From contig JALFRA010000013.1 of the NCBI GenBank assembly GCA_022785125.1, forward strand, positions 1 to 64,000: 64,000 nt of DNA, written 5' to 3'. The position numbers were made by a program, and so were the translations under genes. This document shows positions 6,425-35,738 of the stretch, piece after piece. The notes below the pieces were generated by a model, which was not told the origin of the DNA, did no database searches, and saw nothing but the letters and a program-made list of their open reading frames with translations. Positions within the stretch are counted from its first letter, which is position 1; the number at the start of each line of letters is the position of its first letter. The stretch comes from Clostridiales bacterium. Lineage in GTDB: Bacteria > Bacillota > Clostridia > Oscillospirales > Oscillospiraceae.

Positions 6425-6749
6425 AAGAGAGGGCCGCCCCGGCAGGGGCGGCCCTCTCTCAGTCTGTCGAAAAAGGCGGAACTGATGCAAGAGAGAAATC
6501 AGTTCTTGCACCGAAGAAAAGCCCTCGGCAGAGTTTTGCCGCCCGCAGGCGGCAAAACAGAGTCAGAATCTGTTTTTTCCAAGGACATGAGCCTTGGAAA
6601 AAACACTTCTCAGCCCGCAAGCGTGCGCGCTTTGCGTGTGCGACGCAGCGGGCTGCATTCCCTCGAAAAAATGCTTGCATTTTTGAGAAGCGTGTCGAGC
6701 TTTCTCGACACGCTGAGAGAGGGCCGCCCCGGCAGGGGCGGCCCTCTCT
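6425..6749. repeat. Folded intergenic element with inverted terminal hairpins (copy A)
   Basis: This fills the 342-base gap between two convergent genes. Each end is a 34-base GC-rich hairpin (6425-6458 and 6716-6749) built on GGGCCGCCCC / GGGGCGGCCC. The bases just inside the left end, CTCTCAGTCTGTCGA, recur as a near-perfect inverted copy (CTCTCAGCGTGTCGA) inside the right end, giving long terminal inverted repeats. The interior (about 6518-6690) is copy A of a modular hairpin family also found at 25985-26175 and 35567-35738. The terminal hairpins probably also terminate transcription of the flanking genes. Confidence 0.75.
6518..6690 (+). repeat. Modular hairpin repeat family, copy A core
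   Basis: Hairpin 1: GTTTTGCCGCC - CGCA loop - GGCGGCAAAAC (6533-6558). Hairpin 2: TTTTTTCCAAGG - ACATGAG loop - CCTTGGAAAAAA (6573-6603). A third stem pairs CAGCCCGC with GCGGGCTG around an inner GC hairpin (6611-6655), and a fourth small hairpin (AAAAATGC / GCATTTTT) follows. Loops and linkers match copies B and C; stem sequences differ but remain paired. Confidence 0.8.
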
Positions 6750-6763
6750 TTCGCGCCTGATGG

Positions 6764-9394
6764 CTACCCCCGGCTGGCCACCTTGGGGGCGCTCACCCGC
6801 TTACCCGGTTTATGGCTGCGGCGAAAGGTCTTGACCGCCTCGCACACCACCACCGGCGTCACCGCCAGACCGGCCACCACGCCCCAGGCCCGGGGGGACA
6901 GGGACACGGTGGAAAATACGGTTTGCAGCGGGGGCACCAGCAGCACCGCCAGCTGCATGGCAAGGCCGATGAGGAAGGCCTTGTTCATAGCCGGGTTGGA
7001 AGTTACCCCCAGCCGGAGGAGGGAGGCCTCCTCGCTGCGCACGTCAAAGGCGTGGAAGAGCTGACACAAGGTCAGGGTAGCGAAGGCCATGGTGTTGCCC
7101 GCCGCCAGAGAGCAGCCCGGCAGCATCCAGGCCCCCAGCACATAGGCCGCCAGGGTGAGGGCCCCCACCATCACCCCCTGCCAGGCCAGCCGGAAGGCAA
7201 AGCCGTGGGCAAAGAGGGACTCCCCCGCCTGCCGGGGCGGCCGGTCCATCACCCCCGGCTCCACCGGCTCCACCCCCAGCGCCAGAGCGGGCAGGGAGTC
7301 GGTGACCAGATTGAGCCACAGCAGCTGCACCGGGGCCAGAGGCATCTCGGGAAACCGAAACAGGGTGGCCAGGGCAATGGTCAAGATCTCCCCGATGTTG
7401 CAGGAGAGCAGGTAGTGAATGGCCTTTTTGATGTTGGCGTAGATGCCTCTCCCCTCCTCCACCGCCGAGACGATGGTGGCGAAGTTGTCGTCGGTAAGGA
7501 TCATGTCGGCCGCTCCCCGGGCCACATCGGTGCCCCCCTTGCCCATGGCGCAGCCGATGTCGGCGGCCTTGAGGGCGGGGGCGTCGTTGGTGCCGTCGCC
7601 GGTCATGGCCACCACCTTCCCCCTGGCCTGCCAGGCCTGGACGATGCGCAGCTTGTGCTCCGGCGACACCCGGGCGTACACGGCAAATTTGTCCACTTCC
7701 TCCTCCAGCGCCTGCTGGGGCAGAAAGTCCAGGTCCTCCCCGGTGAGGGCACGGTCCCCCTCCCGGCAGATGCCCAGCTCTTTGGCCACCGCCACGGCGG
7801 TGAGCTTGTGGTCGCCGGTGATCATCACCGGCCGCACTCCCGCCCTGTAGCACTGGTCCACCGCCCGGCGCACCTCCGGCCGGGGCGGGTCCATCATGCC
7901 CAGCAGCCCCACAAAGGTGAGGCCTTTCTCCAGGCTGTCGCTGTCCAGGCTGTGGGGCAGCCCCTCTATATCCTTGTAGGCCATCCCCAGCACCCGCAAA
8001 GCCTTGCCCGCCATGGCCTCGTTGCGCCCGGTGATCCGCCGCAGGGCGCTCTCGGTCAGCCGGCACCGGCGGGCCAGCACGTCGGGAGCCCCCTTCACCA
8101 TCACCCGGTATCCCCCGCCCGGCTTGCTATGTACGGTGGTCATGAGTTTTCGTTCGGAATCAAATGGAATTTCCCCTTTTCTGGGCCACTCCTCCTCCAA
8201 TTTGTTTTTATCCAGTCCGGCCCGTGCCGCCGCTTCCACCAGAGCCGCCTCGGTGGGATCGCCGGTACACACCGGGGTTTTCCCCTTCCAGCTCAGCTCG
8301 GCGTCGCCGCACAGAGTGCCGATGGTGAGGGCCAGATCCCGCTCCCCCTGGGAGGGCGTCCAGATGTCCACCACCGTCATTTTATTCTGGGTCAGGGTGC
8401 CCGTTTTGTCGGAGCAGATCACCCCGGCGCACCCCAAAGTTTCCACCGCCGGCAGCTTTTTGACTATGGCCCGCCGCTTGGCCATACGGCTTACACCCAG
8501 CGCCAGCACAATGGAAATGATGGCGGGCAGGCCCTCGGGGATGGCGGCCACCGCCAGAGATACGGCGGTGAGGAACATTTCCAGCAGATTCCGCCCCTGG
8601 AGCAGCCCCACCCCAAACATCACCGCGCACACGCACAGGCACAGGAAGGACAGGGTCTTGGAAATCTCCCCCATCTTTTTCTGTAAAGGTGTTTCACTTT
8701 CCCCTTTATCCATCAGGAGACCGGCGATATGACCCACCTCGGTATCCATTCCGGTGGCGGCCACCAGACAGGTGGCCCGGCCCCGGGTGACCACCGTGGC
8801 GGAGAGGAGCATATTGCGCCGTTCTGCCAGAGGGGTGTCGGCGGGCAGGGGTCCCAGGGCCCCCTTGTTGACCGGGGCGGACTCGCCGGTCATGGCGGAT
8901 TCGTCAGCCTGGAGTCCTACCGCCTCCAGGATGCGGCAATCGGCGGGCACCAGGTCCCCCGCCTCCAGGCGGATCACGTCGCCGGGCACCAGCTTGTCCG
9001 CCTCCACCCGGGTCAGCACCCCGTCCCGCAGAGCGTGGGCCACCGGGGCCGACATCTGGCTCAGGGCCTCCAGCGCCTTGCGGGCGCTGTCCTCCTGGGA
9101 CAGAGAGATAATTGCGTTTACCGCCACAATGCCCAAAATAATAGCGGCGTCCAGCCAGTCCTCTCCCCCGCTGGCCCACAGGGACAGGACCGCCGCCGCC
9201 AGCAGCACCAAAATCATGGGGTCCTTCAGCTGGCCCAGCAGCCGGGCCAGGAAGGACTTGTCCTTCTTGTGGGCCAGCTTGTTGGGGCCGTGAGCCACCA
9301 GCCGCCGGGCGGCCTCCGCCCCGGTCAGTCCGCCCTGATTGCTTCTCAATTCCTCCAGCGCCTGTTTGGCGCTGCACGCATACCACTGTGTCAT
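6764..9394 (-). CDS. P-type calcium-transporting ATPase
   Basis: 876-residue membrane pump that uses ATP to export Ca2+ (or a similar cation). Visible landmarks in order: N-terminal cation-ATPase domain, actuator motif MTGESAPV, membrane helix with AAIPEGLPAI (the PEGLP signature of Ca2+ pumps), phosphorylation motif CSDKTGTLTQN, nucleotide-binding MVKGAPDVL, hinge MTGDGTNDAPALKAADIG, and a helix with LLWLNLVTDSLPALALG whose N and D are Ca2+ ligands in SERCA/PMCA pumps. The start is the ATG at 9394, with AGGAG upstream; the frame continues further upstream but without a start signal. Transcribed alone. Ca2+ specificity is inferred from the motifs. Confidence 0.93.
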   Translation of the reverse strand: MTQWYACSAKQALEELRSNQGGLTGAEAARRLVAHGPNKLAHKKDKSFLARLLGQLKDPMILVLLAAAVLSLWASGGEDWLDAAIILGIVAVNAIISLSQEDSARKALEALSQMSAPVAHALRDGVLTRVEADKLVPGDVIRLEAGDLVPADCRILEAVGLQADESAMTGESAPVNKGALGPLPADTPLAERRNMLLSATVVTRGRATCLVAATGMDTEVGHIAGLLMDKGESETPLQKKMGEISKTLSFLCLCVCAVMFGVGLLQGRNLLEMFLTAVSLAVAAIPEGLPAIISIVLALGVSRMAKRRAIVKKLPAVETLGCAGVICSDKTGTLTQNKMTVVDIWTPSQGERDLALTIGTLCGDAELSWKGKTPVCTGDPTEAALVEAAARAGLDKNKLEEEWPRKGEIPFDSERKLMTTVHSKPGGGYRVMVKGAPDVLARRCRLTESALRRITGRNEAMAGKALRVLGMAYKDIEGLPHSLDSDSLEKGLTFVGLLGMMDPPRPEVRRAVDQCYRAGVRPVMITGDHKLTAVAVAKELGICREGDRALTGEDLDFLPQQALEEEVDKFAVYARVSPEHKLRIVQAWQARGKVVAMTGDGTNDAPALKAADIGCAMGKGGTDVARGAADMILTDDNFATIVSAVEEGRGIYANIKKAIHYLLSCNIGEILTIALATLFRFPEMPLAPVQLLWLNLVTDSLPALALGVEPVEPGVMDRPPRQAGESLFAHGFAFRLAWQGVMVGALTLAAYVLGAWMLPGCSLAAGNTMAFATLTLCQLFHAFDVRSEEASLLRLGVTSNPAMNKAFLIGLAMQLAVLLVPPLQTVFSTVSLSPRAWGVVAGLAVTPVVVCEAVKTFRRSHKPGKRVSAPKVASRG

Positions 9395-9490
9395 GGTGAC
9401 CGCTCCTCGCCTGTTTGTTTTCCATCTTTTGGATACAGTATAGCAGGCCTGTCCCCCGGAATTGGGGGAAAGCTGGCGGGGCGGGCAGAC

Positions 9491-9522
9491 AAAAAGCGGC
9501 CCCCGCGTAACGCGGGGGCCGC
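9491..9522 (-). terminator. Terminator of the family-5 substrate-binding protein gene
   Basis: Minus-strand stem GCGGCCCCCGCG / CGCGGGGGCCGC followed by TTTTT, immediately after the stop at 9529. Confidence 0.85.
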
Positions 9523-9528
9523 AAAGGC

Positions 9529-11073
9529 TTACTGGGTGATCTGCCAATAGGGGAACTGGAAAAACAAATTCTGCTGGGTGGGGGTCATGCCGGAAACTGC
9601 GTTCCACTGGGTGAGCACCGACCAGTTTTTGAAGCAGAGTACCCCAAAGGGGGGCTCCTCCGCCAGCCGGGCAAAGAGCTGCCGGGCGCCGAGATCCCGG
9701 CTCTGTCCGCTGGTGGCCCGATAGCTCTGGAGCAGCTGTGCGGCCTGAGGGTCGCTGTAGCCCCCGTAGTTGAGGGCGCCCCCGGCGGCGATCAGGGGGG
9801 TGAGGTCAAAGTCGGCGGTAAGCCGCACCTCCCCCAGATAGAGGTCAAAATCTCCCTTCTGGAGGGCGGAGACATAGGCGTCCCAGTCCAGCTTGGTGAG
9901 GGTGGCGTGGATACCCAGATCGTTGAGGCCGTTGACCAGATGCTGGGCCGCTGCCGCCCGGTCCTGATTTTCGGCAGATACCACCAGTTCCAGGCTGAGG
10001 GTCTGCCGTCCGTTGACCCAGCCGCTGCCGGTATTGGTCCAGCCCGCGGCGGTAAGGGCCTCGTCCACCGCCTGGGAGGAGTAGCTGAGGGCGGACGCCT
10101 GATCCTCATGATAGAGGGCGGTGCCGGGGTGGACCGGCAGGGCGGCGGGCTGGGCGTGGCGGGAGAAGATGGCAGTGGATACCGACTCCCGGTCAAAGGC
10201 CCGCAGCAGGGCACGCCGCACCCCAGCGTCCCTGCAGGGGCCGCTGAGGGTGTTGAAGCCCACATACACCATGGTGGAGGTGGGGTAATCCAGGGTATCA
10301 AAGGAGCCGGAGAAGCCCAGGGCATTGGTGGCGGTCAGGTCGGTGGATACCAGAGAAATGTCCTTGGTATCAAAGGCGTGGATCAAATCGTCGGCCTCCT
10401 GAATGGCCCGCAGGGGAATGGTATCCAGGGGCAGCTGCTCCCCCTGCCACCAGCGGCTGTTGATGGTGAGGGACAGCTCACTTCCGCTGCCGGAGAGCAC
10501 ATAGGGCCCGGTGCCCAGGGGGGTGCCCCCGGTCTCCTTGACGATGGGGATATCCAGCAGAGCGGGCAGAGAGGCATTGGCCCGGCTGAGGGCCACGGTC
10601 ACCGTTCCCTGTCCCGCTGTAATGGCGCCGATATCGGTAAACCGGGCGGAATAGAGGGGGCTGGTACGGGCGCTCTCCAGGGAGGAGACCACCTCCGCCG
10701 AGGTGAGGGGGCTCCCGTCGGAGAAGGTGACGCCGGAGCGCAGGGTAAAGGTCCAGGTCAGCCCGTCCTCCGAGGTGGTGTAGCGGTCGCACAGCACCTG
10801 GCTGACCTCAAACTGCTGATCCAGGGCAAAGAGCCCCTCATACATCAGCCCGCCCAGAGACAGGTTGGTACGGTTGCTGCCGGTGATGGGGTGGAATCCG
10901 GCCTGAGGATAGCAGGCCAGGGTAAATTCCGCTCCCTCAGGGGCAGGGGTGGCGCTGGCGGCAGGCTCCGGCGTGGGGGTGGTCTCCGGCTCCGGACCTC
11001 CGGTACAGCCCGTCAAGACCAGGCAGAGGGCGGCCCCCAAAGCCGCCAAAAACCGTCGTGTTCGTTTGTTCAA
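9529..11073 (-). CDS. ABC-transporter substrate-binding lipoprotein, family 5 (oligopeptide/nickel type)
   Basis: 514-residue lipoprotein (lipobox VLTGC, Cys23), a Pro/Thr/Ala linker, then a DppA/OppA-like fold: GGLMYEGLF near the N-terminus, the family signature around DGLTWTFTLRSGVTFSDGSPLTSAEVV, and GFNTLSGPCRDAGVRRALLRAFDRE in the middle. It would capture peptides or a similar solute outside the membrane for an ABC importer. No permease or ATPase gene is adjacent, so the partner is elsewhere or the protein acts as an orphan. The start is a TTG at 11073 with AGGAGGGG upstream. A 191-base hairpin-rich gap separates it from pgeF upstream. Confidence 0.85.
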   Translation of the reverse strand: MNKRTRRFLAALGAALCLVLTGCTGGPEPETTPTPEPAASATPAPEGAEFTLACYPQAGFHPITGSNRTNLSLGGLMYEGLFALDQQFEVSQVLCDRYTTSEDGLTWTFTLRSGVTFSDGSPLTSAEVVSSLESARTSPLYSARFTDIGAITAGQGTVTVALSRANASLPALLDIPIVKETGGTPLGTGPYVLSGSGSELSLTINSRWWQGEQLPLDTIPLRAIQEADDLIHAFDTKDISLVSTDLTATNALGFSGSFDTLDYPTSTMVYVGFNTLSGPCRDAGVRRALLRAFDRESVSTAIFSRHAQPAALPVHPGTALYHEDQASALSYSSQAVDEALTAAGWTNTGSGWVNGRQTLSLELVVSAENQDRAAAAQHLVNGLNDLGIHATLTKLDWDAYVSALQKGDFDLYLGEVRLTADFDLTPLIAAGGALNYGGYSDPQAAQLLQSYRATSGQSRDLGARQLFARLAEEPPFGVLCFKNWSVLTQWNAVSGMTPTQQNLFFQFPYWQITQ

Positions 11074-11113
11074 GGGCAGCCCCTCCTGTCTGTAAGTGCC
11101 GTATAAAACACAC

Positions 11114-11267
11114 CGTTCCGGGAATTCACTTCCCGGAACGGTACCACTGCTTGCCCGCACTGGCGGGCAACCGTCTCCCCCGTGGGGAGGCGAGGGGGGT
11201 ATCAAAACCGTTGTGCCGCAAGGCGGCGCGGCGGTTTTGTATCTAGGGGGGAATATATTCCCCCCTA
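11114..11267 (-). repeat. Hairpin-rich gap with CTAGATAC linker
   Basis: Successive dyads between pgeF and the next gene: CCGTTCCGGGAA / TTCCCGGAACGG (about 11118-11146), TTGCCCGC / GCGGGCAA, and TAGGGGGG / CCCCCCTA overlapping the pgeF stop codon. Directly downstream of this last hairpin, on the minus strand, is CTAGATACAAAACCGCC, which recurs almost unchanged behind another hairpin downstream of prs (about 26190-26220). Confidence 0.55.
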
Positions 11268-12077
11268 GACGATTGCGATCATAGCAGCCTGGCTGCCCCG
11301 CTCCCCGTGGGTAAAGCGATGGGACCAGTACTTGTCGTGGAGGCAGGCGGTGCAGTCGCCGGACACGGCAATATGCTCAGGGTCCAGGCCCACGCTCTCC
11401 AACCGTTTGGCGTTGAGAGCCTTCAGATCCACATGGAACTTGCCGGTGGGCAGCACCTGGATGCAGTGGAGCGCGGAGGCGCCCATGGCCTCGGTCATGG
11501 CATTGGGCACGTCCTCGTGGGTCTCGAAGCAGCACTTGGAAATGCCGGGGCCGATGGCGGCCAGAATGTCCAGCCGGTCACAGCCGTAGCAATCCACCAT
11601 CCGCTCCACCGCCTTGGCGGCAATGCCCAGAGCGGTACCCCGCCAACCGGCGTGGACCGCCCCCACCACCCGGCGCACCGGATCGTAGAGCAGGATGGGC
11701 AGGCAGTCGGCGGTAAAGACAGTAAGCACCACGCCGGGGATGTCGGTGACCAGGCCGTCGGCCTGCCAGGGCTCCGGCTCGTCCAGACCAATGCCCAGGT
11801 CGGCGGTGGTGACGGAACGCACCGTATCCCCATGGACCTGGCTGGCGCACACCACGCCCTTCACATCGGCTCCGATGGCGGCGCAGAACCGGCGGTAGTT
11901 CTCCGCCACTCTGGCCGGATCGTCTCCCCGGGTCATGCTCAGGTTGAGGGAGTCGTAGATTCCCTCCGACACCCCGCCCAGCCGGGTGGAAAAGCCGTGG
12001 ACCGCCCCGCCGGCGGCCTCAACGCCGTCAGAGGCCAGGTACACCAGACCATTTTTGTTGTGTTCAATGATGTTCAT
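11265..12077 (-). CDS. pgeF: Peptidoglycan editing factor / multicopper-oxidase-like purine phosphorylase (YfiH/LACC1 family)
   Basis: 270-residue cytoplasmic protein of the DUF152 family. Conserved features: HGFSTRLGGVSEG, SQVHGD, TADCLPILLYD and GAVHAGWRGT, which carry the His and Cys metal ligands. Members edit peptidoglycan precursors in E. coli, and human and bacterial relatives phosphorolyse adenosine, inosine and methylthioadenosine. Given the purine-related genes elsewhere in the window, the nucleoside activity is an attractive but unproven reading. The start ATG at 12077 has AAAGGAGA upstream. The TAG stop lies inside a perfect hairpin (TAGGGGGG...CCCCCCTA). Confidence 0.9.
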   Translation of the reverse strand: MNIIEHNKNGLVYLASDGVEAAGGAVHGFSTRLGGVSEGIYDSLNLSMTRGDDPARVAENYRRFCAAIGADVKGVVCASQVHGDTVRSVTTADLGIGLDEPEPWQADGLVTDIPGVVLTVFTADCLPILLYDPVRRVVGAVHAGWRGTALGIAAKAVERMVDCYGCDRLDILAAIGPGISKCCFETHEDVPNAMTEAMGASALHCIQVLPTGKFHVDLKALNAKRLESVGLDPEHIAVSGDCTACLHDKYWSHRFTHGERGSQAAMIAIV

Positions 12078-12093
12078 ATGGTCTCCTTTATCC

Positions 12094-12160
12094 AGGGCGG
12101 GCGGTCCGGAGGCCCGCCCCTACGGGTTTCCGTAGGGGGCGGCGTCCCCGACGCCCCGCT
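12094..12160. repeat. CCCCTACG / GTAGGGG palindromic repeat, copy 1
   Basis: A core dyad CCCCTACG - 7 bases - GTAGGGG is flanked by GC-rich small dyads (GGCGTCCCCGACGCC on the right). A second copy of the same plan and wording is at 55272-55338. Lies between secA and pgeF. Confidence 0.65.
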
Positions 12161-12178
12161 TCTGGGACCAGGCTGCTT

Positions 12179-14926
<2,748 letters not shown>

Positions 14927-23915: not shown

Positions 23916-23927
23916 AGCGCTCTCCTT

Positions 23928-25337: not shown

Positions 25338-25344
25338 ATTTTCC

Positions 25345-25941: not shown

Positions 25942-25984
25942 AATGGCTCCTTAAACAGGCAAAGGCGGGGGCAAGCCCCCGCCC

Positions 25985-26175
25985 TAAATTTGTCAAACAA
26001 GTGGCCGCAGCCACTTGTTTGAATGGGATGCAGCCCGCTGCACGCAGGATCTGTCCGCCAAAGCGGACAGATCCCACACTTGCAGGCTGAGAAGTGTTTT
26101 CAGCCACGCACATGTCGCGGCTGAAAACAGATAAGATCGTTTTCGTGCCTGCGGGCACGAACTCTGCGAGGCTCT
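25985..26175 (-). repeat. Modular hairpin repeat family, copy B
   Basis: On the minus strand: start GCCTCGCAGAG (26164-26173), hairpin 1 TTCGTGCC-CGCA-GGCACGAA (26142-26161), linker with ATCTGTTTT, hairpin 2 TTTTCAGCCGCG-ACATGTG-CGTGGCTGAAAA (26097-26127), linker CACTTCTCAGCCTGCAAG, hairpin 3 GGATCTGTCCGC / GCGGACAGATCC, GCAGCGGGCTGCATCC, and hairpin 4 CAAACAAGTGGC / GCCACTTGTTTG (about 25993-26020). Stem sequences differ from copies A and C while pairing is kept. Confidence 0.8.
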
Positions 26176-26189
26176 TTTACCGTGCCCTG

Positions 26190-26250
26190 TATCGGCGCGG
26201 TGGTTTCGTATCTAGGGTCGAACCTGCCGGGGGCAGATTCGATGCCAATC
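26190..26250 (-). repeat. Hairpin plus CTAGATAC linker, second copy
   Basis: Minus strand: a hairpin with arms TCGAATCTGCC / GGCAGGTTCGA, then CCCTAGATACGAAACCACCGC. The linker is nearly identical to the one after the pgeF stop (11235-11260 region), though the preceding hairpin has an unrelated sequence. Confidence 0.5.
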
Positions 26251-26298
26251 AGGCGCAAGCCACCTTTTATGGCAGACAACGTCCCCCCTGGACGGTCA

Positions 26299-27258
<960 letters not shown>

Positions 27259-27342
27259 CTTTCAAACATCCTCTCACAAAATTAGTGTTCTTTGTCTTTG
27301 GTTCAGATCGGAATTATTTTCTGTCCCATCAGCGGGACGGGT

Positions 27343-28533
27343 TCACTTTCTTCTGGACCGGCGGGCAGCCCACTGCTTCTTCACCGCCTGGCGGGGCCGG
27401 GCGATGGCCAGGGAGTCGGCGGGCACGTCGTCGGTGATGGTGGAGCCGGCGGCGGTGTAGGCGCCGTCTCCTACCCGCACGGGGGCAACCAGATTGGTGT
27501 TGCAGCCGATAAAGGCGTCGTCGCCGATGGCGGTGCGGTACTTGCCCACCCCGTCATAGTTGACGGTGACGGTGCCGCAGCCCAGGTCCACCCGGCAGCC
27601 CACGTCGGCATCTCCCACATAGGTCAGGTGGGAGATCTTGCTATCCTCTCCCACGGTGGAGTTCTTCAGTTCCACAAAGCCGCCTACCCTTACATTGGCG
27701 CCCACGTGACAGCTGGGACGGATACAGGCGAAGGGTCCGATTTTGGCGCCGGCGTCCACGGTGCTCTCGCTGAGCTGGGAGGCATTGACCGTCACGTTAT
27801 CGCCCAGGGCGCAGTCCCGGATCATGGTATTGGGGCCCAGCTCACAGCCGGTCCCGATCACCGTCTCGCCCCGCAGGATGGTGCCGGGCAGGATCACCGT
27901 GCCCCTGCCCACCCGGACCCGGGGTCCGGCATAACAGGTGTTGGGGTCCATCATACGTACGCCGCTTTCCAGCAGGCGGTAGGCTCCGTAATTGCGGGCG
28001 GTCAGCTCGGCCTCCACCCGGCCCTCGGGGCCGCTCTTGAGCAGGGCGGCGCTCTGATACCAGATGCTGCGGCCGCCCAGCTTGTCGGCGTTTTCCTTCA
28101 GGGCCTCGTCCAGGCCGCTGCCGTCGGCCAGAGCCTGGGCCAGCAGGGCCGCGTCAATGCGGCACACGCCAGTATCCTTATTATCCAGAGGACCGGCGGC
28201 GCTGTCATCCACCAGCTGCCGGGCGCTCTGCCAGGAGAGGAGCACCGGCCGGGTCAGGATGAGCACCTTTCCCTCCAGCTTGCCCAGAAAGGCCATCAGC
28301 TGGTCCAGGGCGTCCTCGGTGCCGCCGGTGACGAATTCCGTTTCCACAGGGAAGCAGGCCTCCGCCTTTTCCCGGTCGTCGCTGTGGCACACCACAAAAA
28401 ACTGTTGCACGCCGGCGCTCTCCAGCGCCTGGGCCAGCCACAGGGCAGCCGGATCAAAGAGCAGCTCCTCCAGCATGGGAGACACGCCGGTCCCCTCCCG
28501 GGGCAGGAACACTACCGCTCCAGTCGCGCTCAT
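27343..28533 (-). CDS. glmU: GlmU-like protein with intact acetyltransferase but degenerate uridyltransferase domain
   Basis: 396 residues (usual GlmU about 455). C-terminal left-handed beta-helix is complete: FVELKNSTVGEDSKISHLTYVGDADVG, GCGTVTVNYDGVGKYRTAIGDDAFIGCNTNLVAPVRVGD, AAGSTITDDV. The N-terminal domain is shortened and has lost the LAAGxGTRMxSxxPK nucleotide motif: the corresponding text is VVFLPREGTGVSPMLEELLFDPAAL. So glucosamine-1-P acetylation is likely retained but UTP transfer is not expected. Start ATG at 28533 with GAGGTGAT upstream; the frame extends further but without signals. Its place before prs is the normal glmU locus. Confidence 0.85.
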   Translation of the reverse strand: MSATGAVVFLPREGTGVSPMLEELLFDPAALWLAQALESAGVQQFFVVCHSDDREKAEACFPVETEFVTGGTEDALDQLMAFLGKLEGKVLILTRPVLLSWQSARQLVDDSAAGPLDNKDTGVCRIDAALLAQALADGSGLDEALKENADKLGGRSIWYQSAALLKSGPEGRVEAELTARNYGAYRLLESGVRMMDPNTCYAGPRVRVGRGTVILPGTILRGETVIGTGCELGPNTMIRDCALGDNVTVNASQLSESTVDAGAKIGPFACIRPSCHVGANVRVGGFVELKNSTVGEDSKISHLTYVGDADVGCRVDLGCGTVTVNYDGVGKYRTAIGDDAFIGCNTNLVAPVRVGDGAYTAAGSTITDDVPADSLAIARPRQAVKKQWAARRSRRK

Positions 28534-28706
28534 ACCTGAGATCACCTCAAAAAACAATGGATTTGCCTGTTCGCCGGGCGGACAGTCCGCACCGGGGCGT
28601 ATTCTAAAATCATTATAGCAAAACAGTCGGGAAAATGCACCGAAATTTTGAAAAAATCCCGTCTTTTTTTCCAACTTGGGCCCCTTGCACAAGGAAAGAG
28701 CGGTCT

Positions 28707-29219
28707 TTACCCTTTCTTTACCGCGTTTCCACCGAAGGCGGGCCGGGGCAGACATGCCGTCCGGTACAGGGCGGTCCGCCGCCAGATACCCAGCACCTCC
28801 GCCGTGGCGCACAGCTTGTCGGCCAGGCACACCGCCGCCGCCGTCCGGCTGCGGGGGGCCCTGGAGGCCAGAGGCCACATATGGGCCAGGATGCCGTTCT
28901 CCTCCTCCCGGCTCAAACCTCCGCACAGATCCCTGGCATTGCGCTCCGCCGCCAGAGGATGGGCAAAGCACTGTTTATAGGAGGGCAGGCTTTTAGGGTC
29001 GTACAGATACAGATCATGGAGCAGTCCCGCCCGGGCCGCCGCCCGTCCGTCCCGCCCCCACCGCCGGGCCAGGCGGAAGGCCACATAGGACACGAACAGG
29101 CTGTGCTCAAAACAGGACACCCCCGGATGATGACGGATCTCCTTCATGGCCTGCACCGGCTGGGACACCAGCAGCTCCCCCACGCAGTCCAGATAGGCCG
29201 CCCAGTGTTCTTCCCGCAC
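28707..29219 (-). CDS. HD-domain phosphohydrolase
   Basis: 170 residues from a GTG at 29219 with AGGAGG 9 bases upstream. Metal-ligand pattern H (FEHSLFVSYV), HD (AGLLHDLYLYD), H (ILAHMWPL) and D (CLADKLCATAEV) places it in the HD superfamily of phosphohydrolases; the substrate is not known. Stands between glmU (same strand, 173-base gap) and the divergent thiolase operon. Confidence 0.82.
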   Translation of the reverse strand: MREEHWAAYLDCVGELLVSQPVQAMKEIRHHPGVSCFEHSLFVSYVAFRLARRWGRDGRAAARAGLLHDLYLYDPKSLPSYKQCFAHPLAAERNARDLCGGLSREEENGILAHMWPLASRAPRSRTAAAVCLADKLCATAEVLGIWRRTALYRTACLPRPAFGGNAVKKG

Positions 29220-29357
29220 AATACCATACCTCCTCTCCGGTCTTGCTCCCCCCTTATTATATCCCCCCGCACCCCGGCCCGCAACCCTATCCTGCCTCTG
29301 CTGCGCTGGTACAAACTGGCTGGCCGCCCCTCCCGCTTGCTTGCTCACTTTCCACAG

Positions 29358-29386
29358 TTGATTTTTAGAAATAGCGGGGGTATAAT
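29358..29386 (+). promoter_or_regulatory. Promoter of the thiolase-CoA-transferase operon
   Basis: -35 TTGATT (29358-29363), 17-base spacer, -10 TATAAT (29381-29386); the start codon is 54 bases further. Confidence 0.8.
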
Positions 29387-29439
29387 GAAACGAAGGGTTT
29401 ATTAGGGGAGAAATTGAAATTATCTGGAGGTCATTCACA

Positions 29440-30699
29440 ATGAAAGAAGTCTACGTAGTCAACTGCTGCCGTACTGCTGTCGGCTCCTTCGGGGGCAGCC
29501 TGAAGGACACTCCCGCCACCGATCTGGGCGCCGTTGTGGTCAAGGAGGCCCTGAACCGCTCCGGCCTGAAGCCTGAGCAGGTGGACGAGCTGATGTTTGG
29601 CTGTATCCTCACCGCCGCCCAGGGCCAGAACCCCGCCCGTCAGGTGGGCGTGAAGGCCGGCCTGCCCTACTCCGTGCCCGCCTACACCGTGGGTATGGTG
29701 TGCGGCTCCGGCATGAAGAGCGTCATCGAGGGCGCCCGCGCCATCCTGGCCGGCGACGCCGACGTGATCGTGGCCGGCGGCACCGAGAATATGTCCGCCG
29801 CTCCCTACGCTCTGCCCGCTGAGCGCTGGGGCGCCCGCATGGGCGACAAGAAGGTCGTGGACACCATGATCAAGGACGGCCTGTGGGACGCTTACAACAA
29901 CTACCACATGGGCACCACCGCTGAGAACATCGCCGACGTGTGGGGCATCACCCGCGAGGAGATGGACGCCTTCGCCGTGTCCTCTCAGAACAAGACCGAG
30001 GCCGCCCAGGCCGCCGGCAAGTTCGCCGACGAGATCGTGCCCGTCATGATCAAGAAGAAGAAGGAAATGGTGGAGTTCAAGGTGGATGAGTTCCCCAAGG
30101 CCGGCGTCACCATGGAATCCGTGGCCAAGCTGCGCGGCGCCTTCCCCGTGGGTCCCGAGGGCGTGGAGGACGAGATCGTCCACACCTTTGAGGTCACCCA
30201 GGTCCACACCGACGACGCCAAGCAGCACGTCCAGCGGGTCACCGCCGCCAACGCCTCCGGCATCAACGACGGCGCCGCCGCCATCGTGCTGGCCTCCGGC
30301 GAGGCTGTGGAGAAGTACGGCCTGAAGCCCATGGCCAAGCTGATCGGCTGGGGCCAGGGGGGCGTGGATCCCAAGATCATGGGCGTGGGCCCCGTGCCCG
30401 CCTCCCGCAACGCCATGGCCAAGGCCGGCGTGACCATCGAGGACATCGACCTGGTGGAGGCCAACGAGGCCTTTGCCGCTCAGTCCATCGCCGTGGCCCG
30501 TGAGCTGGGCTTCGACATGGAGAAGGTCAACGTCAACGGCGGCGCCATCTCCATCGGCCACCCCGTGGGCGCTTCCGGCGCCCGCATCATCGTCACCCTG
30601 CTGCACGAGATGGCCAAGCGCGACGACGCCAAGAAGGGTCTGGCCACCCTGTGCATCGGCGGCGGCATGGGTGTCGCCACCATTTTCGAGAAGTGCTGA
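29440..30699 (+). CDS. Acetyl-CoA C-acetyltransferase (thiolase) with an extra insert
   Basis: 419 residues. Condenses two acetyl-CoA to acetoacetyl-CoA, the entry step to butyrate. Catalytic residues: Cys88 in GMVCGSG, His374 in SIGHPVGASGARI, Cys405 in TLCIGGGMG. Compared with clostridial ThlA (about 392) there is an additional stretch at about residues 236-268 (PVGPEGVEDEIVHTFEV...HVQRVTAAN) between LRGAF and ASGINDGAA. Codons are almost uniformly GCC/GAC/AAG/CTG, a sign of strong expression. First gene of a three-gene operon with the CoA-transferase; RBS GGAGG. Confidence 0.95.
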   Translation: MKEVYVVNCCRTAVGSFGGSLKDTPATDLGAVVVKEALNRSGLKPEQVDELMFGCILTAAQGQNPARQVGVKAGLPYSVPAYTVGMVCGSGMKSVIEGARAILAGDADVIVAGGTENMSAAPYALPAERWGARMGDKKVVDTMIKDGLWDAYNNYHMGTTAENIADVWGITREEMDAFAVSSQNKTEAAQAAGKFADEIVPVMIKKKKEMVEFKVDEFPKAGVTMESVAKLRGAFPVGPEGVEDEIVHTFEVTQVHTDDAKQHVQRVTAANASGINDGAAAIVLASGEAVEKYGLKPMAKLIGWGQGGVDPKIMGVGPVPASRNAMAKAGVTIEDIDLVEANEAFAAQSIAVARELGFDMEKVNVNGGAISIGHPVGASGARIIVTLLHEMAKRDDAKKGLATLCIGGGMGVATIFEKC

Positions 30700-30715
30700 T
30701 CCATCCGTAACTTCA

Positions 30716-30750
30716 AACCGGAGGGCTGTTTACCGGCCCTCCGGCTTGAA
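30716..30750 (+). promoter_or_regulatory. Intra-operon stem-loop
   Basis: CCGGAGGGC / GCCCTCCGG hairpin in the 79-base gap between thiolase and CoA-transferase genes, with extra pairing outside (TTCAA / TTGAA). No T-run, so more likely an RNA-stability or partial attenuation structure than a full terminator. Confidence 0.5.
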
Positions 30751-30778
30751 AATAATGTGATTTAAGGAGGACACTCCA

Positions 30779-31468
30779 ATGGCCAAGTTTGTCACTGTGG
30801 AAGAGGCTGTGGCCCTCATCCCTGACGGCGCCACCATCATGGTAGGCGGCTTCATGGGCTGCGGTACCGCCCACAAGATCATCGACGCCCTGTCCAAGTC
30901 CGGCAAGGGCAACTTTACCATCATCTCCAACGACGGCTCCATGCCCGGCGGCCCTCTGGGTGAGGACTACTATGGCGTGGCCAAGCTGATCCACAACCGG
31001 CAGGTCAAGCACCTGATCGCCACCCATGTGGGTCTGAACCCCGAGGTTGCCCTGCTGATGAACGAGGGCACCATGAAGGTGGACCTGATCCCCCAGGGCT
31101 CCCTGGCCGAGATGATCCGCGCCAACGGCGCCGGCCTGGGCGGCGTGCTCACCCCCACCGGCGTGGGCACCATCGTGGAGGACAACAAGGATTTCTGCCT
31201 GGGTAAGCAGACCATCGAGGGCCGCGACTACCTGCTGATGAAGACCGTCCACGCCGACGTGGCCATCATCTGCGGCAACAAGATCGACAAGGCCGGCAAC
31301 GTGTGGTACAAGGGCACCACCCGCAACTTCAACCTGCCCATGGCCACCGCCGCCGATCTGGTCATCGCCGAGGCCGACCATGTGGTGGAGATCGGCGAGA
31401 TCGAGCCCGAGAACGTGCACACCTACGGCGTGTTCGTGGACTACGTTGTGGATGGAGGGAAAGCGTAA
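30779..31468 (+). CDS. atoD: Acetoacetate/butyrate CoA-transferase, alpha subunit
   Basis: 229 residues of the 3-oxoacid CoA-transferase subunit A family: GATIMVGGFMGCGTAHKIIDAL, NDGSMPGGPLGEDYYGVAKLIHNRQVKHLIATHVGLNP, EMIRANGAGLGGVLTPTGVGT. Together with the next gene it exchanges CoA between acetoacetate and a short-chain acyl group. Strong RBS (AGGAGGA). Ends with a one-base overlap to the beta subunit. Confidence 0.93.
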   Translation: MAKFVTVEEAVALIPDGATIMVGGFMGCGTAHKIIDALSKSGKGNFTIISNDGSMPGGPLGEDYYGVAKLIHNRQVKHLIATHVGLNPEVALLMNEGTMKVDLIPQGSLAEMIRANGAGLGGVLTPTGVGTIVEDNKDFCLGKQTIEGRDYLLMKTVHADVAIICGNKIDKAGNVWYKGTTRNFNLPMATAADLVIAEADHVVEIGEIEPENVHTYGVFVDYVVDGGKA

Positions 31469-32124
31469 TGGAAAAGTCTGAGATCAAGGGCTTTATCGCC
31501 AAGCGTGTCGCCAAGGAACTGAAGGACGGCGACGTGGTCAACCTGGGCATCGGCCTGCCCACTCTGGTCCCCCACTACCTGCCCGAGGGCGTGAAGGTGA
31601 CCCTCCAGTCCGAGAACGGCATCGTGGGTACCGGCACCGTCAATGACGAGAACAAGGATCCCCTGTACGTCACCGACGCCGGCGGCGCTCCCGCCGCTGT
31701 GGCCCCCGGCGGCGCTTTCATCGACTCCTGCTCCTCCTTCGGCCTGATCCGCGGCGGCCATGTGGACGCCACCATTCTGGGCGGCCTGGAGGTGGACGAG
31801 GAGGGCTCTCTGTCCAACTGGATCATCCCCGGCAAGAAAGTGCCCGGCATGGGCGGCGCCATGGACCTGCTGGTGGGCGCCAAGCACGTCATCGTCGCCA
31901 TGGAGCACACCGCCAAGGGCAATCCCAAGATCCTGAAGAAGTGCCGTCTGCCCTACACCGCCGTGCACTGCATCACCAAGATCATCACCGAGATGGCCGT
32001 GATCAACGTGACCGACAAGGGTCTGGAGCTGGTGGAGTACAACCCCGAGTTCACCGTGGAGCAGATCCAGGCTGCCACCGAGGCTACCCTGATCGTCTCC
32101 CCCGACCTGAAGCCCATGTGCTGA
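31468..32124 (+). CDS. atoA: Acetoacetate/butyrate CoA-transferase, beta subunit
   Basis: 218 residues. Catalytic glutamate in LQSENGIVGTG (Glu49), preceded by VNLGIGLPTLVPHYLP and followed by GGHVDATILGGLEVDEEGSLSNWIIPGKKVPGMGGAMDL. Start ATG shares one base with the alpha-subunit stop (TAATG). In lysine- or sugar-fermenting relatives this enzyme releases butyrate or forms butyryl-CoA from acetoacetyl-CoA; which direction applies here is not visible. Confidence 0.94.
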   Translation: MEKSEIKGFIAKRVAKELKDGDVVNLGIGLPTLVPHYLPEGVKVTLQSENGIVGTGTVNDENKDPLYVTDAGGAPAAVAPGGAFIDSCSSFGLIRGGHVDATILGGLEVDEEGSLSNWIIPGKKVPGMGGAMDLLVGAKHVIVAMEHTAKGNPKILKKCRLPYTAVHCITKIITEMAVINVTDKGLELVEYNPEFTVEQIQAATEATLIVSPDLKPMC

Positions 32125-32145
32125 TCGGCTTAACGCCACATACAG

Positions 32146-32176
32146 ACGTCCCGCGGGAAACCGCGGGGCGTTTTTT
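32146..32176 (+). terminator. Terminator of the thiolase operon
   Basis: Stem CGTCCCGCGG / CCGCGGGGCG followed by TTTTTT. Confidence 0.85.
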
Positions 32177-32279
32177 ATATCCCGCCCGCCGTTTGCCGCA
32201 GAGATACGCTCCGGCCCGCCCGCGCCGAAAACCGGAAGAAAAACGTCACACTTTTTTAAGGATTTCCCCCTGCCCCTGC

Positions 32280-32313
32280 GTGTATACTAACTGTATTAAG
32301 ATGTGTCATACAC
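32280..32313 (+). promoter_or_regulatory. Candidate operator of the YtrA-type repressor
   Basis: Dyad GTGTAT (32280-32285) ... ATACAC (32308-32313) around a possible -10 (TATACT) ahead of the repressor gene. GntR/YtrA repressors usually bind such dyads in their own promoter; no clear -35 was found. Confidence 0.4.
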
Positions 32314-32334
32314 TTCCAGAAAGGAGATGCCAGG

Positions 32335-32724
32335 ATGATCCAGCTCAATTACCGGGACGCCCGGCCCATCTACGAACAGGTGAAGGATGGACTGCGGCAC
32401 CTGGTTGTGACGGGGGCCCTCCAGGCCGGGGACAAACTGCCATCGGTGCGGGCATTGGCCACGTCGCTGGCCATCAACCCCAACACCATCCAGCGGGCCT
32501 ACGAGTCCCTGGAGCGGGAGGGCTATCTGTATACCGTGGCGGGCAAGGGCTCCTTTGCGGCTCCCCAGGCCGACGTAAATGCCGACCGGCGGGAGCGGCT
32601 GCTGAAGGACTTTGACTCCTCTGCCGCGGAACTGCTGTTTTTGGGCATGACGGCGGGGGAGCTGGCCCGCCGTCTGGACGAGGCCGCCGCCCGCCAGGCG
32701 GTGAGAGAGGAGAGGAAACCATGA
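32335..32724 (+). CDS. GntR-family repressor, YtrA subfamily
   Basis: 129 residues. Winged helix: PIYEQVKDGLRHLVVTGALQAGDKLPSVRALATSLAINPNTIQRAYESLEREGYLYTVAGKGSFA, with the short C-terminal tail typical of YtrA. Overlaps the ABC ATPase gene by ATGA. Such regulators repress their own ABC exporter operon and respond to cell-envelope stress or an unknown ligand. RBS AAAGGAGA. Confidence 0.92.
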   Translation: MIQLNYRDARPIYEQVKDGLRHLVVTGALQAGDKLPSVRALATSLAINPNTIQRAYESLEREGYLYTVAGKGSFAAPQADVNADRRERLLKDFDSSAAELLFLGMTAGELARRLDEAAARQAVREERKP

Positions 32725-33623
32725 TCGAAGCCAAAAACGTGGTCAAGACCTTCGACGGCTTTAAAGCCCTGGACGGTCTGACCATGACGGTGCCCCAGGG
32801 CTCCATCTACGGCCTGGTGGGTCCTAACGGCGCGGGCAAGTCCACCCTGCTGCGCCACGTCACCGGGGTGTACCGGCAGGACTCCGGCTCGGTACTGCTG
32901 GACGGCAACCCCATCTACGAAAACCCCGCCGCCAAGGCCCGCATCGCCGACATTCCCGACGAGCTGTACTACTTTCTGTCCGCCTCCACCCGGGACATGA
33001 TGCGCTTTTACAGGGGCTTTTATCCCCGGTTCGACACGGCCCGGTACGAGGCGCTGAAGGACGTGTTTACCAACGTGGACGAGGGCCAGCCCATCCGCCG
33101 CCTGTCCAAGGGGATGCAGAAGCAGTCCGCCTTCTGGGTGGCTCTGTGCTGCCGGCCGGAGGTGCTGGTGCTGGACGAACCGGTGGACGGCCTGGACCCG
33201 GTGATGCGCCGCCAGGTGTGGTCCCTGCTCATGGGGGACGTGGCCGAGCAGGGTACCACCGTGCTGGTGTCCTCCCATAACCTGCGGGAGCTGGAAGACG
33301 TATGCGACCATGTGGGCATCCTCTCCCACGGCAAGGTGCTCATTGAACGCTCCCTGTCCGATTTGCAGGAGAACGTGGTGAAAATGCAGATCGTGTTTCA
33401 GGAGCGGGAGATGCCCAAGCTGCCGGAGGATCTGGAGGTGCTCCATGTGTCCCAGGTGGGCCGCATCCATACCCTCATCATCCGGGGCAATTCCACCGAC
33501 GTGACCAACCGTCTGGCGGTGTACGCTCCCATTCTGATGGAAGCTCTGCCCCTTACCCTGGAGGAGATCTTTATTTATGAGTTGGGAGGTGAGGACTATG
33601 GGGTCCGGGACATCGTACTTTAA
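32721..33623 (+). CDS. ABC transporter ATP-binding protein
   Basis: 300 residues. Walker A VGPNGAGKST, Q-loop region absent of obvious change, signature LSKGMQKQ, Walker B VLVLDEPVDGLDP, H-loop VSSHNLRELEDV. Pairs with the downstream membrane protein; the last 26 bases overlap it. Probably an exporter or mechanosensing system of the YtrB/EcsA type. Confidence 0.95.
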   Translation: MIEAKNVVKTFDGFKALDGLTMTVPQGSIYGLVGPNGAGKSTLLRHVTGVYRQDSGSVLLDGNPIYENPAAKARIADIPDELYYFLSASTRDMMRFYRGFYPRFDTARYEALKDVFTNVDEGQPIRRLSKGMQKQSAFWVALCCRPEVLVLDEPVDGLDPVMRRQVWSLLMGDVAEQGTTVLVSSHNLRELEDVCDHVGILSHGKVLIERSLSDLQENVVKMQIVFQEREMPKLPEDLEVLHVSQVGRIHTLIIRGNSTDVTNRLAVYAPILMEALPLTLEEIFIYELGGEDYGVRDIVL

Positions 33624-35499
33624 TATGACCCTCTTCCGCAAAAATCTGGCCCGGTTCTGGCCCATCTGGGGTCTGTACGCCCTGATCTGGGCGGTACTGC
33701 TGCCGGTAGGGGTGCTGCTGCGCCGGGACGGCTGGGACAAGGGCCTGGCCCGGGAGTTCCCCCTGCACCTGCTGTACCACAGCGGAAACATGGCCCTGGT
33801 GCTGGCCTTCCTCTTTGGCATCCTGTGCGCCATGGCGGTGTTCTCCTACCTCTACTCCTCCCGCTCGGTGGGGATGCTCCACGCCCTGCCCATGCGGCGG
33901 GAGGGCCTGTTCCTCACCAACTATCTGTCCGGTCTGGCCTTTCTGTGGGTCCCCAATTTCGGGGTCTTCCTGCTGGCTCTGATGGCAGAGGCCCTCAACG
34001 GCAAAGTGGTGTTCAGTTCCCTGTTCACCTGGCTGGTGGTCGCCTGCCTTTTGTGCCTGTTCTTTTACTCCTTTGCCGTGTTCTGCGCCATGTTCACCGG
34101 CCATATTCTGGCCCTGCCCGCCTTCTACCTGATCCTCAATTTTCTGGCCTCGTTCCTTACCTACCTGGTGGAGGGCATTGCCCGGGAATTTCTCTTCGGC
34201 TTCACCGGCGCGGTGTGGGCGGAGGAGTGGGCCATGTGGTTCACTCCCGCCCTCAAGCTGCTGCGATGCACCGGCCTGGACTACTCCACCAGCACTGTCC
34301 GGTACTGCGGCCTGGGTCTGGTAGTCCTTTACGCCCTCATCGGCCTGCTGCTGGCGGGCATTGCCCTGGCGGTCTACTGCCGCCGCCAGCTGGAGCGGGC
34401 GGGGGACGTGATCAGCGTGGGCTGGGTGCGCCCGGTGTTCCGCTACGGCATGGCCCTGTGCTGCGCCATCACCCTGGGCGCCTTTTTCTACTCCATCTTC
34501 TACACCCTGCTGCCCCGGGGCGCCTGGACCCTGTTGGGCTGGATGCTGCTGTGGGGGGCCTTTGGCTGCTTCATCGCGGAAATGTTGTTGAAAAAGCGGT
34601 TCTGGGTGTTCAAAACCAGCTGGAAGGGCTGCGTGGTCTTTCTGGTGTGCCTGGTAGGCGCCATGGCCACCCTGGAGCTGGATCTGCTGGGCTTTGAGCA
34701 CCGGGTACCCGACGCCGCTCAGGTCAAGACGGTGGAGATCAGCGGTATCAACACCGCCCCCCGCGACAGCGGCGACTATCTGGTCTTCTCCACCTCCGAT
34801 CCCCAGACCATTGAGCAGATCACCACCCTCCACTCCTCCATCACCGGCCGCAAGGGCGAACTGGAGGCCGTGCAGGCCAGAGGGGTCAGCACCGAGTCCT
34901 GGATCAGCGACTCCAACGGGCTGGACCTGCAGGTGGAGACCAGTACCACCGTGCGCCTGTGGTATGAGCTGACCGACGGCACCGTGCTGGAGCGGCGGTA
35001 CGAACTGCCTGTTCGGCAGGAGGATCTGGAGGACGCCTCCTCCCCCGCCGCCCGGCTGTCCCAGCTCATCAACCAGCCCCAGGTGGCCAATCAGATCTAC
35101 TTCGGCTCCATCGGCCAGAAGGACCGGCTGGTGGACGCCGCTCTGGTCAACCTTTACAACCCGGAGGACAACAGCTACGGCTTTGAGTACCTGCCCGCCG
35201 ATCTGCTGAATCCCCTGCTGGAGGCCATACGGGCCGATGTTGCCGAGGGCAATCTGGGCCGCCGCTATCTGCTGGAGGACCAGGAGCGGATGGACAACTG
35301 CTGCTATGCCGACCTGGAGCTCACCTTCCGGCTGGATCAGTCCGGTACCTCCGGCGGCACCGCCCCCGCCAGCGAGGCCTCCACCTATACCGTCACCATC
35401 ACCCTGCAAAAGAGCGCCGTCCACACCATGGAGGTGCTCAGCAGCTACCCCCACGCCTTCCTCTCCCAGGCGGAGGTCAACATACAGTCCAACAGCTGA
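33598..35499 (+). CDS. ABC-2-type membrane protein with large extracytoplasmic C-terminal region
   Basis: 633 residues. Membrane helices occupy roughly residues 20-360 (FFxxLALLxxG-like blocks, e.g. MALVLAFLFGILCAMAVFSYLYSSRSVGMLHALPMRREG, typical of YtrC/ABC-2 permeases), followed by about 260 residues of beta-rich, non-membrane sequence (VKTVEISGINTAPRDSGDYLVFST...). Start ATG at 33598 chosen for GGGAGG 8 bases upstream. Partner of the preceding ATPase under the YtrA-like repressor. The substrate is unknown. Confidence 0.85.
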   Translation: MGSGTSYFNMTLFRKNLARFWPIWGLYALIWAVLLPVGVLLRRDGWDKGLAREFPLHLLYHSGNMALVLAFLFGILCAMAVFSYLYSSRSVGMLHALPMRREGLFLTNYLSGLAFLWVPNFGVFLLALMAEALNGKVVFSSLFTWLVVACLLCLFFYSFAVFCAMFTGHILALPAFYLILNFLASFLTYLVEGIAREFLFGFTGAVWAEEWAMWFTPALKLLRCTGLDYSTSTVRYCGLGLVVLYALIGLLLAGIALAVYCRRQLERAGDVISVGWVRPVFRYGMALCCAITLGAFFYSIFYTLLPRGAWTLLGWMLLWGAFGCFIAEMLLKKRFWVFKTSWKGCVVFLVCLVGAMATLELDLLGFEHRVPDAAQVKTVEISGINTAPRDSGDYLVFSTSDPQTIEQITTLHSSITGRKGELEAVQARGVSTESWISDSNGLDLQVETSTTVRLWYELTDGTVLERRYELPVRQEDLEDASSPAARLSQLINQPQVANQIYFGSIGQKDRLVDAALVNLYNPEDNSYGFEYLPADLLNPLLEAIRADVAEGNLGRRYLLEDQERMDNCCYADLELTFRLDQSGTSGGTAPASEASTYTVTITLQKSAVHTMEVLSSYPHAFLSQAEVNIQSNS

Positions 35500-35520
35500 A
35501 CCCTCCGCCGCCATCCCTTC

Positions 35521-35554
35521 AGGGGCGCGCCGTCCAAAACGACGGCGCGCCCCT
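35521..35554 (+). terminator. Terminator of the YtrA-ABC operon
   Basis: Stem AGGGGCGCGCCGTC / GACGGCGCGCCCCT followed by TTTCACTTTTT. Confidence 0.8.
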
Positions 35555-35566
35555 TTCACTTTTTAA

Positions 35567-35738
35567 AAAGCCTCGCAGAGTTTGCGCCCGCAGGCGCAAA
35601 ATAAATTCAGATCTGTTTTTTCCGGGGACATGAGCCTCGGAAAAAACACTGCTCAGCCCACAAGCGTGCGCGCTTTGCGCGTGCGACGCAGCGGGCTGCA
35701 TCCTGATCCCCAAAATGGCTTTGCCATTTTGGGGACTG
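35567..35738 (+). repeat. Modular hairpin repeat family, copy C
   Basis: GCCTCGCAGAG, hairpin 1 TTTGCGCC-CGCA-GGCGCAAA (35581-35600), ATCTG linker, hairpin 2 TTTTTTCCGGGG-ACATGAG-CCTCGGAAAAAA (35616-35646), linker CTCAGCCCACAAGCGTGCG, GC hairpin, GCAGCGGGCTGCATCC, hairpin 4 CCCCAAAATGGC-TTT-GCCATTTTGGGG (35709-35735). It fills most of the 366-base gap before the PLP enzyme gene. Confidence 0.8.

Follow-up and report, generated by a model that had tools for sequence, protein, structure and literature searches.

Short IS1182-ended elements of Oscillospiraceae with a conserved three-hairpin core at terminator-like hairpins

IS1272, an insertion sequence (IS) of the IS1182 type, is described in the portions of two reports on which we draw as targeting stem-loops irrespective of their sequence, terminators included (Wan et al. 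2017, PMC5678879; Furi et al. 2016, PMC4923244). In those portions, it replaces or deletes the stem-loop without duplicating the target (PMC5678879, PMC4923244), and the hairpin targets reported by Furi et al., among them the repA terminator, show partial deletion and no duplication (PMC4923244). Duplication of the stem-loop is drawn only as a possible pathway, pathway b, in the model of Wan et al. (PMC5678879), and another IS1182 family member, ISCaa15, is entered with 4-bp direct repeats in a table of PMC3196728. Here we describe a short, structured element that occurs in three copies in a 64,000-nucleotide stretch of DNA, hereafter the window (positions 1 to 64,000 of contig JALFRA010000013.1, assembly GCA_022785125.1, from a Clostridiales bacterium of the Oscillospiraceae). 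These copies and their relatives in other Oscillospiraceae are best explained, with a probability that we put at about 0.75, as IS1182-type miniature inverted-repeat transposable elements (MITEs) that carry a conserved, covarying three-hairpin core and lie at terminator-like hairpins at gene ends.

REP/BIME palindromes with RAYT transposases are intergenic palindromic repeats, like the elements described here; to our knowledge, they have no terminal repeats or target duplications of the kind seen here. The usual target of bcr1, one of the bcr1 to bcr18 repeats of the Bacillus cereus group, is TTTAT. In the part of the bcr study that we cite, bcr1 to bcr18 are dispersed intergenic repeats, of which bcr1 to bcr3 are MITE-like and bcr10 and bcr18 have a conserved secondary structure, and 84 of 165 and 62 of 155 repeats were in mRNAs in two strains; their host group is a different one, and that part describes no link to IS1182 or to terminators (PMC3446304). 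The small nonautonomous elements RUP, BOX, and SPRITE of Streptococcus pneumoniae have structured transcripts; the elements described here resemble RUP in sharing their ends with an IS and SPRITE in being terminator-like, whereas RUP is tied to IS630-Spn1 and TA targets and no whole-terminator duplication is described in the sections cited (PMC2229807, PMC10969869).

A preliminary description of the window, made from its sequence alone, had placed copies of a modular hairpin element at 6518-6690 (copy 1), 25985-26175 on the minus strand (copy 2), and 35567-35738 (copy 3). All three were found there, with their parts in the order described, and all three lie between larger open reading frames (ORFs) as had been claimed, although small, mechanically called ORFs do overlap them. 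Copy 1 starts with GCCCTCGGCAGAG rather than with the start given for it. The element exceeds these intervals. As a whole, copy 1 extends over 256 bp (Table 1) and is framed by two identical 34-bp palindromes that had not been mentioned.

The copies carry IS1182-type ends, CAGNCTGTCRAAAAA. Such ends are present on most of the delimited elements, the right end being the more divergent; most start with CAGNCTGTCRAAAA or a near variant, and the other end is related and forms a hairpin. The elements bounded by flanking repeats are 183-434 bp long (median, 219; n = 45), the longest being a nested unit, and encode no transposase gene, which, with their short length, is as expected of MITEs. Both flanks were available for 120 of the 131 distinct copies, and 45 of the 120 had a long flanking direct repeat (score of ≥16; 23-41 bp; median, 31), compared with 0.3% of 2385 control pairings in which the two flanks came from different copies. 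The duplicated flank was nearly always a whole palindromic hairpin, with one exception among the 45 (L067). We refer to these hairpins as terminator-like because they are GC-rich, lie at gene ends, and often have a T run. At one locus (L188; G066:C29), a type A element (see below) is followed in tandem by a type B element, and the same hairpin occurs three times; a single target can thus be struck repeatedly. In L070, L081, and others, the left and right palindromes of one insertion sometimes differ by matched changes on the two sides of the stem. Another copy, L006 (contig C12 of the window's own genome, ~137245-137690), seems to be nested in a further IS1182-ended unit with its own palindrome duplication of ~32 bp.

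The target type and the duplication mode are common to these elements and to autonomous ISs. An IS in genome G066 (L126) has the same ends as the elements and a 32-bp palindromic duplication; its 484-amino-acid protein falls in the IS1182 family in NCBIfam (3e-115, over the cut-off) and contains the Pfam domains DDE_Tnp_1_6, DDE_Tnp_1, and DUF772. Among 80 named IS1182 relatives, 55 gave a match with suitable flanks and were tested. Long flanking direct repeats were found at 40 of the 55, the L126 locus included, and 39 of these 40 were palindromic (19-64 bp), L303 being the nonpalindromic one; only 0.09% of 1086 mismatched pairings passed. The ends of these 40 are mostly of the CAGNCTGTC type, and a few of their hosts fall outside the Oscillospiraceae. 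Some genomes contributed several of the 40 loci, namely, one Chakrabartyella piscis genome (eight) and Clostridiales bacterium CCNA10 (three). Given how frequent these duplications are, IS1182-type elements of these bacteria often duplicate whole stem-loops. The insertions described here are what pathway b of Wan et al. predicted (PMC5678879). They resemble IS1272 in targeting stem-loops by an IS1182-type system, with end sequences as in the IS relatives compared, and they differ from it in that whole stem-loops are duplicated and no transposase is encoded.

Relatives with empty sites retain a single hairpin. At the site of copy 3, the element is missing from G022, G133, and G118, which keep one related hairpin, and from G127 and G132, which have one different hairpin; it is present in G125 and G121. 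Where copy 2 is inserted, one related hairpin is found in G022, G127, G133, G118, and G136 and one different hairpin in G120, all without the element, which is present in G125 and G132. These sequence comparisons support insertion at two of the three window sites, copies 2 and 3. Copy 1 was uninformative because the neighboring ORF is likewise absent in relatives. Given the IS1182-type ends, the whole-hairpin duplications, and the empty sites, the copies are probably miniature transposons that use hairpin-targeted IS1182-type transposition in a target-duplicating mode. The unit is a MITE with a structured core, not a free-standing RNA gene.

The genome that contains the window (2.97 Mb, 43 contigs) has about two dozen related places by blastn. 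The covariance-model search that the preliminary description had proposed was run with a model of hairpins 1 and 2 built on 19 copies from this genome (model R1). It gave 24 matches there at E ≤ 1e-11, a number that may count one physical copy twice because contigs several times end inside copies, and it matched 65 of 120 sampled Oscillospiraceae genomes, this one included (59 of 106 by genus). Several Oscillospiraceae genomes have at least 30 matches, with no more than 36 candidates being scored per genome. In a class-wide sample, 3 of 391 genomes matched at E ≤ 1e-6, all of them Oscillospiraceae and again including this one; the listed order relatives from other families had no match in this sample, in which strict filters may lose weak matches. 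Plasmid records contained the element only in Vescimonas fastidiosa (Oscillospiraceae), at 36 places on an 861-kb replicon and at one on a 142-kb replicon. Phages and plasmids as the main carriers were rejected, since three weak phage records and the two replicons of this one Vescimonas species turned up. As a side observation, the repeat breaks the assembly, several contigs of the window's own genome stopping within copies.

A check against Rfam, release 15, had also been proposed. It gave no match in the window at the gathering score, and seven loci gave five weak matches below gathering at E ≤ 1, to microRNA and proteobacterial small RNA models. With no gathering-level match and only irrelevant weak ones, membership in a known Rfam family was rejected. 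Structured MITE-like repeats and IS1182-type hairpin targeting are already known; the element family and its combination of features appear to be new, in that the open-licence literature searched yielded neither the family nor IS1182-derived terminator MITEs.

The core consists of three hairpins. In hairpins 1 and 2, 97.3% of the alignment cells were paired and 20 of 24 pairs showed two-sided change (93 matches, 89 distinct), so the stem covariation noticed in the window extends well past its three copies. The covariation score was 0.478, compared with 0.160 for shuffled and at most 0.124 for slid alignments, and none of 500 shuffles was as good. This alignment was fitted to the model and leans to it; the slid and shuffled controls and an ungapped count limit the bias. 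Hairpin 3 occurs in two main types, with 99 of 133 entries being type A, 24 type B, and 10 others (L019 resembles type A, L111 and L202 resemble type B, and some of the ten start with CGGAGCG). In MAFFT alignments, two-sided changes that kept the pair were seen at 14 of 23 predicted pairs in type A (38 of ~100 entries, those with a long inner hairpin, L019 included) and at 14 of 19 predicted pairs in type B (26 sequences, namely, the 24 type B entries plus L111 and L202). Type B has a GNNA-like tip and a G-A rich internal loop. For the window copies themselves, the folding energies of 150-nucleotide pieces gave z values of -6.4, -6.6, and -4.2 (copies 1, 2, and 3), and none of 200 dinucleotide shuffles per copy equalled the native piece. 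Two details of the preliminary description had to be amended, however. Hairpin 2 has ~13-14 pairs, one usually G.U, instead of exactly 12, and complete divergence of the stem sequences is an overstatement for copies 1 and 3, in which the hairpin 2 arms have mostly the same bases. Four loci (L014, L168, L172, and L176) have an extra branched insertion of ~40-45 bp in or around hairpin 1.

The wobble pairs of the core are biased to one strand. When hairpins were found by Watson-Crick symmetry only, which does not favor G.U, the ratio of G.U to A.C was 100:3 in hairpin 2, where 88 G.U occupy the third position from the loop (88 of 132 copies), and 12:4 in hairpin 1; the corresponding ratios for the right-end hairpin and the duplicated palindromes were 12:8 and 7:6. 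The alignment totals were 78:29 with majority-G.U pairs excluded and opposite-strand matches dropped; another alignment-based strand count dropped one of two opposite-strand matches. Three wobbles of type A hairpin 3 were kept in 32, 36, and 36 of 38 sequences. This bias identifies the + strand as the one on which the core folds; it is weak in hairpin 1 alone and not significant in the flanking DNA palindromes. Since covariation is combined with G.U on one strand, the fold appears to be selected in single-stranded form, which points to a selected RNA on the core's + strand.

Pairing is also maintained after insertion. Copies without visible duplication were 96.7% paired (66 matches from 65 of 75 sources, ten with weak or partial repeats being left out of both groups), compared with 97.6% of those with duplication (48 matches, 45 distinct). 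Opposite-strand matches were kept in these counts (1 of 66 and 3 of 48) and in the full set above (2 of 93). Six of eight syntenic groups were used for pairwise comparison, and the six pairs differed by 13 two-sided changes that kept pairing, 2 one-sided changes that kept it, 3 broken pairs, and 5 indels. Between L023 and L171, which come from two species, have flanks ~84% identical, and lack a recognizable left end or duplication, all six pair differences were kept, with one indel in addition. Hairpin 1 has decayed in L112 and L215.

Taken together, these results suggest the following scheme. An IS1182-family transposase would join the element ends at the feet of a target stem-loop, probably extruded as a cruciform, and repair would then duplicate the whole hairpin. 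The right-end hairpin may act as a terminator where it abuts a stop codon. In four copies without duplication (L169, L170, L171, and L173), it abuts the apparent stop codon of the right-hand gene, as judged by eye, an arrangement that would be consistent with the replacing mode or with one hairpin copy having been lost later. The core would act in cis or in trans as an RNA transcribed from outside promoters, probably to the benefit of the element; this is the weakest step of the scheme. We propose tentatively, and at somewhat less than even odds, that a selected RNA family spreads from terminator to terminator on IS1182-type ends by stem-loop-duplicating transposition, multiplying terminators as it goes and being kept as a folded RNA once immobile. 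Many natural hairpin-duplicating insertions can now be compared with the stem-loop-replacing mode reported for IS1272. As to why bacterial MITEs carry conserved folds, fresh, immobile, and syntenic copies within one bacterial family make selection after insertion measurable. The elements also suggest that a mobile element is remodeling the ends of genes in many gut bacteria, a point of relevance to the annotation of terminators and to breaks in assemblies.

Several observations weigh against this interpretation, some of them against the transposition route and others against an RNA role of the core. No clear duplication was found at 75 of the 120 copies, and among the four hairpins that flank the window copies, a simple terminator scan recognizes just two (the left ones of copies 1 and 3). 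Published IS1182 members do not all duplicate hairpins, given IS1272 and ISCaa15 as described in the portions cited above, and the family is clearly heterogeneous. Matches to IS1182 (E ≤ 1e-10) occurred in 10 of 30 element-bearing and 6 of 20 element-free Oscillospiraceae genomes, those exceeding the curated cut-off in 3 and 3, respectively; with rates this similar, helper and element show no association. Genome G064, with many clean duplications, has solely a broken IS1182 remnant, and G091, also with clean duplications, has no IS1182 match. The core is absent from the 80 IS1182 loci and from four other loci. No internal promoter was evident, since the best sigma-70-like scores upstream of the core, inside it, and on the minus strand were no better than those of shuffles in 121 copies, and an internal promoter was therefore rejected as the source of transcription. 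Moreover, 39 of 103 copies are antisense to both neighbors, which leaves + strand transcription putative. Finally, changes at syntenic sites that look compensatory could have arisen by gene conversion from one copy to another.

Candidates for a helper or partner were examined along several lines. A search with Pfam PF13751 found a match in 7 of 22 genomes. An intact IS1182 transposase is missing from most of the element-rich genomes tested; a resident helper transposase did not regularly accompany recent copies, although one is not strictly required of a MITE. In G064, a pattern search for the terminal inverted repeats (1 mismatch, 43 places, list read by eye) gave no unexplained inverted pair at the distance expected of an IS. 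In element-rich, IS1182-poor genomes, the helper may possibly have been lost or have come from an external source. Autonomous ISs as carriers of the core were dismissed, there being none in the 80 loci. An IS1182-like gene of the window's own genome (L031; C37:1-1825) was rejected as a partner because its ends differ (TGACATTAAGGTCAAAAGGG); an ORF beside it resembles a conjugation coupling protein. Antisense control of the IS1182 transposase was likewise rejected. The complements of six loop and linker motifs were absent from the 5' 220 nucleotides of 45 of the 55 tested IS1182 loci, the 45 used for this search, and over the whole transposase gene they occurred near shuffled counts, the largest excess being 5 against 2.05 expected.

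Coding strands were called from codon usage trained on the window and applied to all copies. Confident calls on both sides were obtained for 103 copies, of which 41 lie between convergent genes, 39 are antisense to both genes, 20 are in the sense of both, and 3 lie between divergent genes, a pattern as expected from insertion at gene ends. No two copies from different genera had both neighbors matched, and a few matched on one side. This result led us to reject a free-standing RNA tied to a particular gene, and a regulatory function of the core is not supported. The suggestion of a new mobile or regulatory RNA family therefore held for mobility (dispersed, species-polymorphic copies) and for selected structure (covariation and strand-specific G.U) but not for regulation (no promoter signal and no gene pair common to genera). 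The preliminary description had counted two outcomes against its reading; one, a match to transposon ends, was found (IS1182-type inverted repeats and duplicated hairpins), and the other, a lack of further covariation, was not.

The alternatives differ mainly in what keeps the core paired. In a plain MITE, the internal hairpins would be functionless, their pairing would be kept by template-switch correction, and the copies would differ by subfamily descent. Such correction would account for the nearly perfect pairing of the target palindromes and right-end hairpins and for the matched changes between the two palindromes in L070 and L081. We nonetheless consider this explanation unlikely, since palindrome correction would be strand neutral and would erase G.U, yet the G.U at the third pair of hairpin 2 recurs in two-thirds of the copies and the three wobbles of type A hairpin 3 are retained; in addition, loops and linkers are still recognizable in loci from ~25 other genera. 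A free-standing RNA gene or a cis-regulatory, riboswitch-like RNA that lies near terminators by chance would agree with the strong covariation, the conserved loops, and the tip and internal loop of type B, but it is very improbable given the terminal repeats with duplicated hairpins, the polymorphism between species, the tandem and nested copies, and the absence of a cross-genus gene pair and of a promoter signal.

Comparable in its low likelihood to a plain MITE is a core that works as single-stranded DNA, as a recognition or folding signal in transposition or replication, and not as RNA. The copies that are antisense to both neighbors, with no gene reading into the strand, keep their pairing and strand preference (G.U 19 : A.C 5), which speaks for a DNA signal, and the promoter result points the same way. 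Pairing persists, however, in copies without visible duplication, and conserved G.U wobbles in runs are more typical of RNA than of DNA. We favor the reading in which the core of the IS1182-type MITE is an RNA read from outside and serving the element, the single-stranded DNA role being the less likely alternative.

Table 1. Positions of the parts of the three copies within the window
Feature	Position	Strand	Basis or remark
Copy 1, left copy of duplicated terminator-like palindrome, 34 bp	6426..6459	.	Identical to 6716-6749; simple scan: terminator-like on minus strand
Copy 1, whole mobile element, 256 bp, ends CAGTCTGTCGAAAAAG ... CTTTCTCGACACGCTG	6460..6715	+	Exactly between the palindrome copies
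Copy 1, core hairpins 1 and 2	6522..6612	+	Model R1, 105.7 bits
Copy 1, core hairpin 3, type A, short inner hairpin	6604..6659	+	Sequence
Copy 1, right copy of duplicated palindrome	6716..6749	.	Identity to left copy; simple terminator scan: not called
Copy 2, target hairpin GGCGGGGGCAAGCCCCCGCC	25964..25983	.	Related single hairpins in element-free species; simple terminator scan: not called
Copy 2, right-end hairpin	25993..26022	-	Sequence
Copy 2, core hairpin 3, type A, long inner hairpin (L021)	26027..26096	-	Sequence
Copy 2, core hairpins 1 and 2	26088..26173	-	Model R1, 85.7 bits
Copy 3, target hairpin, left copy	35522..35553	.	Called terminator-like; single in species without the element
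Copy 3, core hairpins 1 and 2	35569..35655	+	Model R1, 95.5 bits
Copy 3, core hairpin 3, type A, short inner hairpin (L001)	35647..35702	+	Sequence
Copy 3, right-end hairpin	35707..35735	+	Inverted match, sequence
Copy 3, possible remnant of right hairpin copy (CCGCGCCC)	35739..35746	.	Comparison with empty sites; putative remnant

Two features of the window adjoin the copies. The ORF beside copy 1 (5267-6421) is missing at the same place in several genomes of the same genus. A further stretch of ~110 bp adjoins copy 2 (window ~26175-26300); it is missing in other relatives and present in G125 and, in part, in G132.

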